The position numbers and the translations under genes were made by a program. From contig JACTMU010000091.1 of assembly GCA_014584465.1 (NCBI GenBank), forward strand, positions 1 to 32,904: a DNA stretch of 32,904 nt, in the 5' to 3' direction. Positions 12,107 to 18,789 of the stretch are shown in pieces. Positions within the stretch are counted from its first letter, which is position 1; the number at the start of each line of letters is the position of its first letter. The DNA is from Pseudomonadota bacterium. Its GTDB lineage: Bacteria; Bdellovibrionota; Bdellovibrionia; Bdellovibrionales; JACTMU01. Below the pieces are notes generated by a model. That model worked only from the letters and a program-made list of their open reading frames with translations. It made no database searches and had not been told where the DNA came from.

Positions 12107-12973
12107 TCAGACTTGAATCTCTCGCTTCATGAAGGCGGGAAGGGCAAAACTCGCCTCATGCATCTCTGCCGAATACCACTGAAATTCAAGCCCCAGATCC
12201 GAGACCCTTTGAGAAGAAAAATCGCCATGAGGAGCAGGCAATGGTGACACCTGATCCGAAGCAAAAGTAAAGGACCAAAGCCCTCCCGGATAGGTGAGAT
12301 TGGAAAAATTGTAGATGTAAACCTTTGCAAAGTGCTCTCGAAGGGTCTCCACAAGACGTTTCTGAATGGACAATCCATAAAAAGGGGACTCCCCTTGTGA
12401 GACCACAACACCCCCAGGACCAAGGATTCTGCGAACCTCCCCGTAGAAGGCTGAACCAAAAAGAGGTGTTGCAGGACCTATCGGGTCCGTCGAATCTACC
12501 AAAATCAAATCAAAGTTCTCGTTGCACCCCTTTACAAATTCAACGCCATCGCCACAGATCACCTTCACACGAGGGTCTGTGAGCTTGGACGCTGTCTGAG
12601 GGAGGTGTCGTCTGCAGGCCTCTAGCACAACTTCATCAATCTCAACAAGATAGCACTCCTCGACACTGGGATGTCGCAACACTTCGCGCACAGTTCCCCC
12701 ATCTCCCCCACCGATCACCAAGACTCTCCTTGGGTGCGTTAGGGTAAAGAGTGGAACATGGGCCATCATCTCGTGGTAGACAAACTCATCCCTCTCAGAG
12801 ACCATAAAGAGTCCATCATTGAGCAAAACGCGACCATGCTCTAAGGTCTCTACGACATCCACCTGCTGATAGGGGCTCCGTTGAGAAAAGAGTGTCCGAA
12901 CGACTCGAAAACCAACACGTGAACTCTCTCTATGACGCTCATCGACCCAGAGATCCAACGAAGACTCCTTCAT
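12107..12973 (-). CDS. speE: Spermidine synthase
   Basis: Transfers the aminopropyl group of decarboxylated SAM to putrescine, giving spermidine and 5'-methylthioadenosine. The 288 residues show the expected order: an N-terminal beta-hairpin domain (SPYQQVDVVETLEHGRVLLN), DEFVYHEMMAHVPL, the nucleotide loop VLVIGGGDGGTVREVLRH, VEIDEVVLEACR, and the catalytic-loop motif LILVDSTDPIGPA with acidic residues at 160 and 163. QGESPFYG and the tail PAFMKREI close the fold. The ATG overlaps the stop of the upstream decarboxylase by ATGA, so the supplier of the aminopropyl donor and its consumer are translationally coupled. It ends flush against the convergent DUF218 gene. Confidence 0.95.
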   Translation of the reverse strand: MKESSLDLWVDERHRESSRVGFRVVRTLFSQRSPYQQVDVVETLEHGRVLLNDGLFMVSERDEFVYHEMMAHVPLFTLTHPRRVLVIGGGDGGTVREVLRHPSVEECYLVEIDEVVLEACRRHLPQTASKLTDPRVKVICGDGVEFVKGCNENFDLILVDSTDPIGPATPLFGSAFYGEVRRILGPGGVVVSQGESPFYGLSIQKRLVETLREHFAKVYIYNFSNLTYPGGLWSFTFASDQVSPLPAPHGDFSSQRVSDLGLEFQWYSAEMHEASFALPAFMKREIQV

Positions 12974-13941
12974 CGTATCATCTCTCCCATCTCCAAGGAG
13001 CTGCTGATGGGAATGGCCCTTTGAATCCCCAACTCAGGCGCAAGAAAACTGTGAAACTGAGTCCAAAGTCCTGAAGAGAGCTTCTCAAACACCTGAGCCT
13101 TTCGTTGAAAAGAGCCCCCAAGATGGAATGTTCTTACCTCTTTAGAAAAGAGAACCACATCAAAAGCTCGCGGCTGAAACAGATCCACAACTTCCTTCAC
13201 AAATTCTGGCAACGTATTGATTTTCAAAGGATCATTGGTTTCAAAACTTGCATAAGAGTGGAACTCTTCGGGAGACACATGCAGAGTTCCGTAACAGGAG
13301 CCTGAAATCGCATTCACCGAATAACCACGAGGTTCAAAAATATAGTCATCCACCTCAAAGCCCGAAAAGAGTCTCTCTGAAATTCCAAGCGACTTGATCT
13401 TACGACTTCGATCACTGTGATCAAAGGCCTCCCGCGCCTCACCTTGCAAGCCATGCATCAATATCTCAAGCGTCGTCTCCTCTGAGAGGGACTCCTTGTC
13501 GGCTCGATCAAAATGCCACAAATAGATGTAGTGGTCATCAAGTTCACCAAAACGAAATCCTCTCCCCTTCATCCACTGAGACAACACATGGCAATCTTCA
13601 ATAAAGTCGGAGGGCTGATAGCGTGGAAAGACCTCATTTTTTCTCTCATAGTAGAAGGTTTCAACCTGCTCCAGCGAGATGAAATTGAAAAGATGTCCAA
13701 CCGCCTCCACCAAATGAGTGCGGCCACAGGTGATCATGATCGCCTTGCGATCAAAGACAAAAAGACTCGATTCGGATAAGAGATAGGCATCTACATGATC
13801 ATTGGAAATTCTTGAGAGAATGGTCGCTCCAGCCTTCGTGACGACCTCTTCCCAAACACTCCCCGGCAGGGACCGAAGCGAAGGGGCATAGGCTGAGACA
13901 ATAAGTTCACTCTTTTTTTCAGAGCCCTCGAAGTGGTACAT
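12970..13941 (-). CDS. Eukaryotic-type (class II) S-adenosylmethionine decarboxylase
   Basis: Pyruvoyl enzyme that makes decarboxylated SAM for spermidine synthesis. The protein starts at MYHFEGSEKK (GGAGAGG upstream) and has 323 residues, close to human AMD1 (334) and far longer than the 115-130 residue bacterial SpeD. Landmarks line up with the human enzyme: FEGSE (human F7/E8/E11 region), the self-cleavage site LLSE57|S58SLF, TCG with Cys72 (human Cys82), TLEILM (putrescine-site helix), F202...GYS208VN (human F223, S229), H221VSPE (human H243, E247) and SFE234TND (human E256). All residues needed for processing and catalysis appear present. The gene begins 7 nt after an acyl-CoA dehydrogenase stop and overlaps speE by ATGA. 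The speE partnership strongly favours SAM decarboxylation. A changed substrate, as reported for some SpeD relatives, remains the alternative. Confidence 0.92.
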   Translation of the reverse strand: MYHFEGSEKKSELIVSAYAPSLRSLPGSVWEEVVTKAGATILSRISNDHVDAYLLSESSLFVFDRKAIMITCGRTHLVEAVGHLFNFISLEQVETFYYERKNEVFPRYQPSDFIEDCHVLSQWMKGRGFRFGELDDHYIYLWHFDRADKESLSEETTLEILMHGLQGEAREAFDHSDRSRKIKSLGISERLFSGFEVDDYIFEPRGYSVNAISGSCYGTLHVSPEEFHSYASFETNDPLKINTLPEFVKEVVDLFQPRAFDVVLFSKEVRTFHLGGSFQRKAQVFEKLSSGLWTQFHSFLAPELGIQRAIPISSSLEMGEMIR

Positions 13942-13948
13942 TTCTGTC

Positions 13949-15130
13949 TTACCTCTCCAAGGCCTCTGGTGCACGACACAGATCACGCACCATATTCTTT
14001 TGGTGGGCTTCCAGAGTGCCTCCACCAATTTCAAGCAACTTGGCATCACGCCACAAGCGCTCAACGTGGTACTCACCAACGTAGCCATATCCACCAAGAA
14101 CCTGAATGGCCCGATCTGCTATGTTCTTACCCATCGTCGAAGCGATCAACTTGACCCCATCGGAATTGAGACGCTGATCCCCTGAGGTCAAACTCATATT
14201 TCGGGCAGTCTCATACAAATAAGATCGAACAGACTGTAGTTCTGCATAACTGTCGGCGATGTACTTTTGAATCTGCCCAAAGTGGTGCAGTGGTTTTCCA
14301 AAGGCACTCCGCTCATTGGAGTAGTTCACCATGATCTTAAGAGCTCTTCGAGCGATCCCCACACTCATCGCAGCCAAGGTGACCCTTTCAATCTCAAGAT
14401 TTCTCATCATATGGTGAACCGAGTCACCCTCTTGGCCAACCAGATTCTGGTGAGGAACGCGACATTCGTGAAAGACGAGCTCTGCCGTATTGCTGGCTCT
14501 CATCCCCAATTTGTCTGTGATCTTCTGTCCCACACTGTAACCTGAATGGCTCTTCTCAACCATAAAGGTCGAGATGTCATTTCTTCCTGAACCACTTCTT
14601 GCATAAACAAGAACGCAATCAGCAGGGGTCCTCTCCTCATCGATGGCTCCATTGGTGATCCACATCTTTCGGCCTTCAAGTTCGTAGTGATCACCATGGC
14701 GACGTGCCGTTGTGCTCATCGAAAGCACATCGGTCCCTATGTCAGGTTCGGACATGGCCATCGCCCCGATCCACTCTCCCGAACAGAGTCGTGGAAGAAG
14801 TCTTGCCTTTTGCTCTTCATTGGCATTGAGATAGAAGTTATTGACACACAAAATGGCGTGAGCCAAGTAGGCCAAAGTAAGCCCAGGATCCGACATGGAC
14901 ATCTCTTCATGAACGATGACGGCCCCAACGGCGTCCATCCCAGCTCCCCCATATTGGGGATCGACCGTCAATCCAAGAAGTCCCAACTCCCCCAACTTTC
15001 GAAAGAGAGGCAAATTGAATCGCTCTTCTCGATCAAATTGGTGAGCTTGTGGCTCAATCTCACGTTCGACCAAAGCACGAACGGTATTGCGAAGCATCAA
15101 GTGTTCTTCAGATGGGTTAAAGAGATCCAT
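13949..15130 (-). CDS. Acyl-CoA dehydrogenase, isovaleryl-CoA dehydrogenase type
   Basis: FAD-dependent dehydrogenase of 393 residues that oxidises a short branched acyl-CoA, probably isovaleryl-CoA in leucine breakdown, passing electrons to ETF. Family segments: YGGAGMDAVGA, AMSEPDIGTDVLSM, GRKMWITNG, TDKLGMRASNTAELVF, SNERSAFGKPLHHFGQIQ and QVLGGYGYVGEYHVERLWRD. The catalytic base position is telling: NLEIE248RVTL matches the Glu of isovaleryl-CoA dehydrogenases (LDLERLVL), while the position used by medium-chain enzymes is Gly here (EIGGGTLEAHQ). GAGGAGAG precedes the ATG. It sits first in a tight run with the SAM decarboxylase and speE, an unusual association. No other leucine-degradation gene is visible, so the substrate is inferred from that one active-site feature. 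Confidence 0.88.
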   Translation of the reverse strand: MDLFNPSEEHLMLRNTVRALVEREIEPQAHQFDREERFNLPLFRKLGELGLLGLTVDPQYGGAGMDAVGAVIVHEEMSMSDPGLTLAYLAHAILCVNNFYLNANEEQKARLLPRLCSGEWIGAMAMSEPDIGTDVLSMSTTARRHGDHYELEGRKMWITNGAIDEERTPADCVLVYARSGSGRNDISTFMVEKSHSGYSVGQKITDKLGMRASNTAELVFHECRVPHQNLVGQEGDSVHHMMRNLEIERVTLAAMSVGIARRALKIMVNYSNERSAFGKPLHHFGQIQKYIADSYAELQSVRSYLYETARNMSLTSGDQRLNSDGVKLIASTMGKNIADRAIQVLGGYGYVGEYHVERLWRDAKLLEIGGGTLEAHQKNMVRDLCRAPEALER

Positions 15131-15297: not shown

Positions 15298-18200
15298 TTA
15301 TGAGCACCCCATCGAGTTGCCGCAGTTCAAGCAGCGATAGCAGCTGCCATTTCGAACGGTCGTATGTCCACACTCATTGCAAAATGGAGCATCTCCCATC
15401 AGAGTCGATAGCTGACTGTCCAGAGCACCAATGCCCACGCCGCCACTTCCTCCGTGAGCCGTTGAAGCCTCTGGCTTCTTGGGAACCACGGCCATCTCAA
15501 GTGGAAGCGCAAGCTGCTCTCGATCCACGTTGGCTTTGGACTCGATCACCGTCATTTGGCCATTGCGACGATTCATCGCGAGGGCCTCCGTATTGGGCTT
15601 GACGTGGATAAATTCAGTCTTCCCAAGATACTCCATCCCAAGCAACCGAAAGACATAGTCAAGAATGCTTGTGGCCTGTTTGATGTTGGGATGATCCACC
15701 ATCCCCTGAGGTTCAAAACGGGTGAAGGTGAACTTTTCAACGTAATCCTCAAGGGGGACACCGTACTGAAGACCCATGGAGACACTGATCGCAAAACAGT
15801 TGAGCAAACTTCGCAAAGTCGCCCCCTCTTTATGCATATCGATGAAGATCTCACCCAAGCGCCCGTCATCGTACTCACCGGTGCGAAGGTAGATCTGATG
15901 ACCTCCCACTCGACCCTCAACGGTCATCCCGGTTCGCTTTTGAGGCATCTTTCGACGTCGAGCTGGAGCATACTGTAGAGCTTGCGCAATGGCCTCTTCC
16001 AAATCCTTTCGAGTGTAGACTGCGGCCTCCTCGCCCTCTCCAACTGGCTTCTCGGCCCTCTCACTCTTCTTCTTGGTCTGAGTCGAAAGTGGCTGACTGA
16101 GCTTACAACCATCTCGATAGACGGCCACGGCCTTCAAACCCAAACGCCAGCTCATCTCATAGAGCGACTTGATGTCAGAAACGGTCGATTCTTGAGGCAG
16201 GTTGACCGTCTTGGAAATGGCCCCGCTAATAAAGGGCTGAACCGCTGCCATCATCTTGATGTGTGCTTCTGGAGCGATGAATCTCACACCATCAGGTCCA
16301 CACTTGTTCGCACAATCAAAGACCTTCATGTGCTCAAGCTTAAGCTCAGGAGCACCCTCAAGAGTCATTCGTCCACAGATCACTTGAGAGGCCTCTTTGA
16401 TCTGCTTCTTATTAAAACCCAACGCCTCCAAAACGGATCTTCCATCCAACTCACTCTCATCAAGGCGAAGACGGGCCATTCCCTCCTTTCCTATAACCCA
16501 AGGAGCAATGGCCGAATTCAAATCAAAAGCTGATGGAAGGGCCTTTTCGATCTTTGAAAAATCCTCATCACAAAAACCCTTGCCAGCCAAAGTCTGTCGA
16601 TTGATGTGAGGAGTCCCGTCAAGACGTGAAGTCCCAATTGCAAACTCGATGATTCTCCCCACCTGCTCATCTCCATAACCAAGAGCTCGAAGAGCCTTTG
16701 GCACAGACTGGTTGACAATCTTAAAGTAGCCACCACCGGCAAGTTTTTTATACTTCACCAAGGCAAAATCGGGTTCAATGCCAGTCGTATCACAATCCAT
16801 CAAAAGACCGATGGTGCCGGTTGGTGCCAAAACCGAAACTTGCGCATTACGAACGCCATACTCTTCACTGAGCTCAAGCACCTCATTCCAAACCGATTTC
16901 ACACTCGTTGCCATGTACTCTGGCAAGCAGCTCATATCAATCTCATTTGCCTTTTGAAAGTGCTGCCCCAAAACTCTACTCATGGACTCCCGATTCTCTT
17001 CAAACCGGACAAAGGGGCCCTTCACGGCCGCGATCTCCGCGCTGGTCCGATAGGCCTCTCCATGCATGATGGCAGTGATGGCAGCAGCCCACACCCTGGC
17101 CTCATGACTGTCATAGGGAACTCCTTTGATCATCAAAAGGGTCCCTAAATTGGCGTATCCAAGCCCCAAAGGACGAAATTCATGACTGTTCTGAGCGATC
17201 CTTTCAGTTGGGTAACTTGAAAAATCGACCAAGATGTCCTGAGCTGTTAACAAAATCCTACTGGCATGACGAAATGATTCGACGTCAAATGATCCATCTT
17301 CTCGTAAAAACTTAAGAAGATTAAGTGAAGCCAAGTTGCAGGCAGAATCATCCAGGAACATATACTCAGAACAGGGGTTGCTCGCATTGATGCGACCCGT
17401 GGTGGCACAGGTGTGCCATTTCTGAATGGTCGAATCAAACTGCAAACCAGGATCGGCGCAAGCCCACGCGGCAAATGCGATCTGATCCCAAAGGTCCGTT
17501 GCTCGATAGGTGTCCATCACCTCTCCAGAAGTTCGGGCCTTCGTCGTCCAATCTTTGTCCTCTAGGACTGATTCCATAAACTCATCGGGAATACGGACGG
17601 AATTGTTGGAATTTTGTCCACCCACAGTGCGATAGGCCTCCCCATTCATATCCGAAGAGTATCCGGACTCCACCATCAGCTTAACTTTTTTCTCTTCCCG
17701 AACCTTCCAATTGATGAAGCTTTCAATTTCAGGATGATCCATGTCCAAGCAGACCATCTTGGCCGCCCTTCGTGTGGTTCCTCCCGACTTGGTCGCACCA
17801 GCTCCACGATCAAGGACCTCAAGAAAGCTCATAAGTCCTGAACTTTGGCCTCCTCCAGAGAGTCGCTCCTGTTTGCCTCGGACCTTTGAAAAATTGGTCC
17901 CGGTCCCCGAGCCATACTTGAAGATTCTAGCCTCACTCTTTGCAAGCTCAAAGATGGCCATGAGGTCATCTTCCACACTTTGAATGAAGCAAGCAGAACA
18001 TTGAGGGTTCTCATAGGCGGTTTTGGTAAGTTCGATACGATCATGAACTGGGTTCCAAAAGAAATTTCCCGATGTCCCTTCAATTCCATACTCTTGAAAA
18101 AGGCCGCAGTTAAACCAAACAGGGCTGTTGAAGGCCCCCTTTTGCTGAAGCAGTATATGAGAAAGCTCATTTTCAAAACTCTGAGCCTCTTCAGATGAGT

Positions 18201-18606
18201 GAAAGTAGCCACCTAGATTCTCTCCAGCTTTTCGAATTGTGTGTGCGACTCGATAGACCACCTGGCGAACCGATGTCTCGTGACCTGTTTGAGGAACCCC
18301 AGCTTTTCTGAGATATTTGCTCATACAAATGTCTGTCGCAAGTTGGCTCCAACTTGCCGGCACCTCAATGTCTCTCATCTCAAAAACCGTTTCACCCGCA
18401 GCACCTGTGATCGTGCTGGTTCGGCGCTCCCACTTCATCTGGTGGTAAGGGTTCTCACCTCGCTTGACAAAGTGGTGAGGAAAAAATGCACCTGTTTTTG
18501 AACCCCTCACAGCTACGCTCCTTTTGCCTTGACCTTTGGGTGCGCGAGTAGCCTCCCTTGCACTTCCCATCGCGGACTCCATCTCCTCAACATGTTGCTG
18601 CTCCAT
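15298..18606 (-). CDS. nrdJ: Adenosylcobalamin-dependent (class II) ribonucleoside-diphosphate reductase
   Basis: Reduces ribonucleotides to deoxyribonucleotides for DNA synthesis using a coenzyme B12-generated thiyl radical, with or without oxygen. I start at MEQQHVEEMESAM (18606), which has GGAGGAGAG upstream, giving 1102 residues; open frame further upstream covers the regulatory leader. Landmarks: GAFNSPVWFNCG, NPQCSACFIQSVEDDL with the redox Cys, FKYGSGTGTNFSKVRG, SGGTTRRAAKMVCLDMDHPE, NPCSEYMFLDDSACNLASLNL with the radical-site NPCSE, and LAPTGTIGLLMDCDTTGIEPDFAL. At the C-terminus TGMTVEGRVGGHQIYLRTGEYDDG matches the long NrdJ extension, ending in a CxxC...CxxC zinc-ribbon-like tail (CNECGHTT, CYRCLNCGNSMGC). 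No cobalamin riboswitch was recognised in the leader. Two NrdR-like boxes lie about 185-230 bp upstream of the start. Confidence 0.95.
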   Translation of the reverse strand: MEQQHVEEMESAMGSAREATRAPKGQGKRSVAVRGSKTGAFFPHHFVKRGENPYHQMKWERRTSTITGAAGETVFEMRDIEVPASWSQLATDICMSKYLRKAGVPQTGHETSVRQVVYRVAHTIRKAGENLGGYFHSSEEAQSFENELSHILLQQKGAFNSPVWFNCGLFQEYGIEGTSGNFFWNPVHDRIELTKTAYENPQCSACFIQSVEDDLMAIFELAKSEARIFKYGSGTGTNFSKVRGKQERLSGGGQSSGLMSFLEVLDRGAGATKSGGTTRRAAKMVCLDMDHPEIESFINWKVREEKKVKLMVESGYSSDMNGEAYRTVGGQNSNNSVRIPDEFMESVLEDKDWTTKARTSGEVMDTYRATDLWDQIAFAAWACADPGLQFDSTIQKWHTCATTGRINASNPCSEYMFLDDSACNLASLNLLKFLREDGSFDVESFRHASRILLTAQDILVDFSSYPTERIAQNSHEFRPLGLGYANLGTLLMIKGVPYDSHEARVWAAAITAIMHGEAYRTSAEIAAVKGPFVRFEENRESMSRVLGQHFQKANEIDMSCLPEYMATSVKSVWNEVLELSEEYGVRNAQVSVLAPTGTIGLLMDCDTTGIEPDFALVKYKKLAGGGYFKIVNQSVPKALRALGYGDEQVGRIIEFAIGTSRLDGTPHINRQTLAGKGFCDEDFSKIEKALPSAFDLNSAIAPWVIGKEGMARLRLDESELDGRSVLEALGFNKKQIKEASQVICGRMTLEGAPELKLEHMKVFDCANKCGPDGVRFIAPEAHIKMMAAVQPFISGAISKTVNLPQESTVSDIKSLYEMSWRLGLKAVAVYRDGCKLSQPLSTQTKKKSERAEKPVGEGEEAAVYTRKDLEEAIAQALQYAPARRRKMPQKRTGMTVEGRVGGHQIYLRTGEYDDGRLGEIFIDMHKEGATLRSLLNCFAISVSMGLQYGVPLEDYVEKFTFTRFEPQGMVDHPNIKQATSILDYVFRLLGMEYLGKTEFIHVKPNTEALAMNRRNGQMTVIESKANVDREQLALPLEMAVVPKKPEASTAHGGSGGVGIGALDSQLSTLMGDAPFCNECGHTTVRNGSCYRCLNCGNSMGCS

Positions 18607-18631
18607 CTCTCCTCCGTTCCCTAGCATGTTG

Positions 18632-18677
18632 TTGCAAATCCTACTTGCAATCCAATTTCCCTTGCAATCAAATTTCA
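18632..18677 (-). repeat. TTGCAA direct repeats in the nrdJ leader
   Basis: TTGCAA, itself a palindrome, occurs at 18632-18637, 18645-18650 and 18662-18667. The last two lie in a 17-bp tandem duplication (18644-18660 and 18661-18677, 14 of 17 matches). A 17-bp unit would break a reading frame, which supports this being leader and not coding sequence. Confidence 0.55.
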
Positions 18678-18789
18678 CTTTACGACATTTTTTGGCTCTC
18701 TCGGCATTTCAAGAGTCCAAACAACTCGATTAAATCTCACTTGCGTCCCTAAAAACAGAACATGGCAAAAACCGAACGTCAAGAGATTG

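Follow-up and report, generated by a model that had tools for sequence, protein, structure and literature searches.

A class II S-adenosylmethionine decarboxylase gene overlapping speE in Bdellovibrionota: probable role in spermidine synthesis and membership of a bacterial operon lineage

Results

The amd-speE locus

We analyzed a 32,904-nt stretch of a Bdellovibrionota genome (contig JACTMU010000091.1, assembly GCA_014584465.1), which is referred to as a whole as the window. Its polyamine locus contains the following features:

12107..12973, minus strand: speE, spermidine synthase (polyamine aminopropyltransferase), 288 aa; NF002010 and TIGR00417; ATGA overlap with amd
12970..13941, minus strand: amd, class II S-adenosylmethionine decarboxylase (AdoMetDC) proenzyme, 323 aa; PF01536, phmmer, AlphaFold2 and Foldseek
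13768..13773, minus strand: codons of E57 and S58, the predicted self-processing site (human E67/S68), in the context LLSE57/S58S; placed by alignment and unchanged across all 50 bacterial sequences compared
13949..15130, minus strand: acyl-CoA dehydrogenase gene, 7 nt upstream of amd; PF02771/PF02770/PF00441

The amd ORF comprises 323 codons between an ATG at 13941 and a stop at 12970. The ORF listing prolongs this frame to a TTG at 14097, but the ATG is the preferred start since it directly precedes the conserved FEG motif and is served by a GGAGAGG ribosome site, located inside the end of the upstream gene. At its 3′ end, amd meets speE in the junction CG-ATGA-AG. The GC and GC3 values of amd are like those of the neighboring genes. 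The acyl-CoA dehydrogenase gene is probably co-transcribed with amd, with no role in polyamine synthesis implied, and 5 of 30 named Bdellovibrionia loci likewise have such a gene immediately upstream of amd; this arrangement was seen in the window (13949-15130) and in loci L071, L074, L075, L114, and L122. Further upstream, positions 15298-18678 encode a 1126-aa B12-dependent (class II) ribonucleotide reductase with a TSCPD domain.

Family assignment and predicted fold

The only Pfam match of the amd protein is to PF01536, the eukaryotic-type AdoMetDC family (213.9 bits vs. a cut-off of 22.2), and an E-value of 4.4e-63 means that the match is not due to chance. No match to the class I SpeD profile (PF02675) was found in the protein. 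The score against TIGR00535, a stricter NCBIfam equivalog, was 172 bits and hence formally short of the curated cut-off of 233, as would be expected of a bacterial branch. Among solved structures, the closest relative by phmmer was human AdoMetDC (1msv, E 5e-32). An AlphaFold2 model, built with a 50-sequence alignment as input, had a pLDDT of 91.2 and a pTM of 0.91, and when it was compared to the PDB with Foldseek, the top match was 1msv_A, with TM-scores of 0.84/0.85 across 326 columns. The leading matches were the full-length human proenzymes 1msv and 1jl0 (TM 0.82-0.86), followed by other human, trypanosome, and potato class II chains, while the class I SpeD structures 1tlu and 1vr7 (Thermotoga, Aquifex) aligned to only about 119 columns. 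The human-type class II architecture proposed in a first-pass annotation of the locus is thus borne out by profile and prediction, and the protein is predicted to be a complete two-domain class II enzyme with the human fold.

Processing and active-site residues

Landmark residues were placed by alignment with human 1jl0/1msv, and conservation was counted in 50 bacterial sequences, including that of the window. The human residues E8, E11, E15, C82, S229, H243, E247, and E256 correspond to E5, E8, E12, C72, S208, H221, E225, and E234 of the window protein, and the alignment puts the processing serine and the S208/H221 pair in register. All of the landmarks named by the first-pass annotation (FEGSE, E57/S58, Cys72, S208, H221, E225, and E234) were therefore correctly placed relative to the human proenzyme. 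E5, E8, E12, E57, S58, C72, S208, and H221 are invariant in the 50 bacterial sequences. E225, however, is not a family landmark in bacteria, since the position is occupied by Q in 30 of the 50.

Three positions depart from the human enzyme. Human K80 is replaced by I70, in a column that is I or L in all bacterial sequences; human D174 is replaced by E155, whereas the other 49 bacterial sequences have D; and human C226 is replaced by R205, in a variable column. In the human enzyme, D174, E178, and E256 form the site of putrescine stimulation. At the equivalent positions, the window protein retains E159 and E234 but carries E155 for D174, as well as I70 for K80. Putrescine stimulation is not universal among class II enzymes; to our knowledge, the potato enzyme lacks it. 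E155 and R205, two unexplained changes near the putrescine and active sites, count against a working enzyme.

Pathway partners in the genome

The window genome (3.75 Mb, 99.7% complete) contains a single copy of amd and no class I SpeD (PF02675) gene. Its SpeE exceeds both NCBIfam cut-offs, with 340 bits against NF002010 (cut-off 260) and 284 bits against TIGR00417 (cut-off 249.6). A 634-aa biosynthetic arginine decarboxylase, SpeA (752.8 bits vs. a cut-off of 624), and an agmatinase (202.8 bits vs. 174.3) are encoded, as is a diaminopimelate decarboxylase. On paper, the route from arginine through agmatine and putrescine to spermidine is complete.

Distribution of class II and class I genes

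The occurrence of class II genes in bacteria has already been published (PMC10407285, citing Li 2019), and the first-pass annotation described them as uncommon there. Most bacteria fit that description, but this phylum does not: PF01536 was found in 69 of 291 sampled genomes and PF02675 in 129. Only 7 of the 291 possess both classes vs. about 31 expected (Fisher p 6e-12, with related genomes not independent), and class II amd thus largely excludes class I SpeD in Bdellovibrionota. In the two of these seven that were examined (L148 and L149), the PF02675 protein joins a SpeD-like domain to a membrane segment that resembles the N-terminal part of membrane aminopropyltransferases; hence, these two are no clear breach of the pattern. 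Elsewhere, class II is sparse, occurring in 2 of 120 Elusimicrobiota, 14 of 237 Myxococcota, and 4 of 246 Planctomycetota genomes, in the seed genome alone among 321 Gammaproteobacteria, and sparsely in Acidobacteriota. When 84,980 species genomes were scanned with a sequence pattern, 353 class II loci were recovered, and the 80 best were retained; the pattern came from a narrower alignment, as one including human, potato, and T. brucei had no sufficiently conserved stretch. Among these best 80 of 353 loci were fifteen genomes from several phyla from which class I SpeD is absent. No class II gene was found in the viral contigs, phages, and plasmids searched as possible vehicles, in agreement with PMC9992855.

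Several other gene forms were observed during the survey. Proteins combining a SpeD-like domain with a multi-pass membrane segment of the PRK03612 N-terminal type occur with or without class II amd (L148:2187-3278, L149:1559-2635, L150:1747-2817, and L158:1908-2981). Family f2, which has no class II genes, encodes a SpeD-SpeE fusion of 427-437 aa, and such single chains with a class 1b SpeD were found mainly in this family (L052:1483-2766, L161:2130-3413, and L162:2152-3465). Six genomes of family f12 (G002, G011, G019, G041, G064, and G072; L154 and L155) carry two separate PF02675 genes each, of ~135 and ~155 aa. One of the two is divergent, and such a pair may represent SpeD together with an arginine or ornithine decarboxylase derived from SpeD. 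Two frames, of 198 and 275 aa, match PF01536 only in part (G273 C24:15703-16140 and G239 C43:24141-24371) and are possibly decayed or truncated class II genes. Lastly, PF02675 frames of 260-300 aa in Bacteriovoracia-type genomes were considered as a tandem SpeD fusion or intermediate, but this was rejected, the one scanned being a class 1a SpeD of the E. coli type that scored slightly below its cut-off.

Phylogeny of amd and speE

The sequences nearest to the window amd are bacterial, with 42-48% identity, vs. about 30-35% for eukaryotes. A quick tree of 105 sequences separated every bacterial sequence from those of human, potato, and T. brucei (SH-aLRT 98). In a careful tree of 76, the window protein belonged to a group of 72 bacterial sequences, with the three eukaryotes and one Planctomycetota sequence, L178, on the far side of the branch (99/95); L178 itself was placed only tentatively (96/46). 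The window sequence paired with that of another bacterium, L136, in the quick tree (SH-aLRT 91), near Elusimicrobiota and Myxococcota sequences, but the careful tree gave this pairing no strong support. Gammaproteobacterial amd was nested among Bacteriovoracia-type amd in the careful tree (99/94), which suggests transfer between bacteria.

Of the named Bdellovibrionota loci, 38 of 40 have speE directly downstream of amd, as do 7 of 12 Elusimicrobiota loci, and most of the remaining loci have homologous speE frames at the same place. The SpeEs linked to class II genes, from Bdellovibrionota, Elusimicrobiota, Holophagae, a Planctomycetota locus, and L136, formed one clade (100/99), apart from the SpeE of SpeD-SpeE fusions, gammaproteobacterial SpeE, and eukaryotic spermidine synthases; a sister relationship between eukaryotic spermidine synthase and this clade, considered as a sign of operon transfer, was neither favored nor rejected (p-AU 0.46). 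The window SpeE paired with L136 (97/90), the same partner as for amd. Since the SpeE phylogeny parallels that of amd, the two genes behave as a single unit in inheritance or transfer. Together they constitute a bacterial operon lineage that Bdellovibrionota and Elusimicrobiota share with single genomes from other phyla.

Discussion

Function of the amd protein

The first-pass annotation took the ATGA overlap with speE as a sign of a working spermidine pathway, a proposal now backed by the sequence, the predicted fold, the operon, and the presence of SpeA and agmatinase. With both of these enzymes encoded, class I SpeD absent, and amd overlapping speE, spermidine synthesis is the best reading of the locus. 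It is very likely that amd encodes a working class II AdoMetDC that feeds SpeE for spermidine synthesis, within a bacterial amd-speE operon lineage. What we observe directly is the sequence family, the residues, the predicted fold, the operon, the pathway partners, the absence of class I SpeD, and the bacterial placement, and it is from these that we infer the protein's cleavage, activity, substrate, and product.

The probable mechanism of processing and decarboxylation is carried over from human AdoMetDC, the observation in the window protein being the presence and position of the residues concerned. The proenzyme would cleave itself between Glu57 and Ser58, with Ser58 attacking the preceding peptide bond, aided by Ser208 and His221, to give an ester. 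Splitting of the ester would leave a pyruvoyl group, derived from Ser58, at the start of a chain of ~30 kDa and release a free chain of ~6 kDa. S-adenosylmethionine (SAM) would then form a Schiff base with the pyruvoyl group and lose CO2, after which Cys72 would serve as the proton donor. SpeE would transfer the aminopropyl group from decarboxylated SAM to putrescine made via SpeA and agmatinase, or to agmatine. Indeed, most tested spermidine synthases accept agmatine as well (PMC11107197), so the substrate of SpeE could be either compound. The amd-speE pair would in this way stand in for class I SpeD in the window genome.

A protein that retained the fold and self-cleavage could nevertheless have turned to ornithine or arginine, as class 1b SpeD homologues of bacteria and archaea have done. 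Such switches are common among class 1b homologues (PMC10407285), and E155 and R205 are unusual among the 50 sequences compared. However, the published cases are class 1b proteins, mostly from genomes without speE or encoded beside a second speD (PMC10407285), whereas the window genome, which has speE, offers no AdoMetDC candidate other than amd; amd also overlaps speE, and agmatine is already supplied by SpeA. We consider a change of substrate very improbable. That amd is an inactive paralogue serving only to activate another AdoMetDC is scarcely credible, since dead class II paralogues of this type do occur in trypanosomes (prozyme, 5tvm/5tvf) but the window protein has the full set of processing and catalytic residues and its genome lacks a second AdoMetDC to activate. 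A working AdoMetDC thus remains the preferred reading, and annotation of spermidine synthesis in Bdellovibrionota should expect the class II form.

Transfer and origin

Eukaryotic class II enzymes scarcely resemble class I SpeD in sequence, and their origin is debated (PMC10407285). The same paper states, citing Li 2019, that the bacterial class 2 genes have a eukaryotic source, which would favor a recent acquisition of amd by the window lineage from a eukaryote. Likewise, constraining the window amd with three eukaryotes cost 22.4 log units but gave a p-AU of 0.074, above the 5% level and therefore short of formal rejection. In contrast, the closest relatives are bacterial by identity, both amd trees place the gene among bacteria, its base composition is host-like, and it has the same operon partner as its bacterial relatives, with a matching SpeE phylogeny. 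Recent transfer is also argued against by the frequency of class II in the phylum, the depth of a bacterial group spanning several phyla, and the coherence of the operon partner; we regard it as highly improbable. The suggestion in the first-pass annotation that the gene bears on transfer or eukaryotic origin consequently finds no sign of a recent event, but retains some value with regard to ancient exchange.

A single ancient exchange between eukaryotes and bacteria, in either direction, is compatible with the data, with three eukaryotic sequences in the tree. It is conceivable, although we put this forward only tentatively and think it less likely than not, that class II AdoMetDC arose in bacteria within the amd-speE operon and was then received from that lineage by eukaryotes. 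If true, this would reverse the published view that bacteria took class II from eukaryotes. A Planctomycetota genome, G1031 (L178 and L182:2191-3144), carries an amd that groups beside human, potato, and trypanosome, with an adjacent speE inside the bacterial class-II-linked clade. Eukaryotic contamination was considered as a source of L178 and rejected, since the contig is gene-dense, its genes are uninterrupted, and a speE of the bacterial clade is aboard. L178/L182 is a possible near-root bacterial lineage and, in the event of a bacterial origin, would have survived from close to the branching point; its amd-speE locus is the most useful lead on the direction of exchange. A deep bacterial branch of several phyla with its own operon partner also provides a broad bacterial-side sequence set for testing that direction. 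New here are the findings that class II is common in the phylum and largely excludes class I, and that the gene is part of a deep bacterial group that spans several phyla and has a coherent operon partner.

Comparison with known systems

The window protein shares with the eukaryotic class II enzymes (human AMD1, 1msv/1jl0; potato, 1mhm; T. brucei, 5tvf) a two-domain single chain with a full-length structural match, the FEGxEK motif, the LSE/SS processing site, and the active-site Cys, Ser, His, and Glu residues. It differs in being about 30-35% identical to them, in lacking the short insertions of the human and potato enzymes, in having I70, E155, and R205 in place of human K80, D174, and C226, and in being encoded in an operon with speE. 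The bacterial class II proteins of Bdellovibrionota, Elusimicrobiota, Myxococcota, and marine Gammaproteobacteria belong to the same PF01536 family and the same phylogenetic group, although the window protein is only about 35-48% identical to the relatives sampled, a sample without other genomes of the organism's own family. The amd-speE operon is common to the window, Bdellovibrionota, and Elusimicrobiota, whereas the sampled gammaproteobacterial and myxococcal class II loci have no adjacent speE. Class 1a/1b SpeD (PF02675) performs the same reaction, and 1tlu/1vr7 match part of the model, as noted above, but these proteins are about 110-260 aa in length, vs. 323 aa, and in one related family are fused to SpeE. 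Finally, the SpeD-SpeDC fusions of Lentisphaerota and relatives also have two SpeD-type domains per chain, and in some of them the second domain has no working processing site, but they are class 1b in sequence (PMC10407285), whereas the window protein matches class II only.
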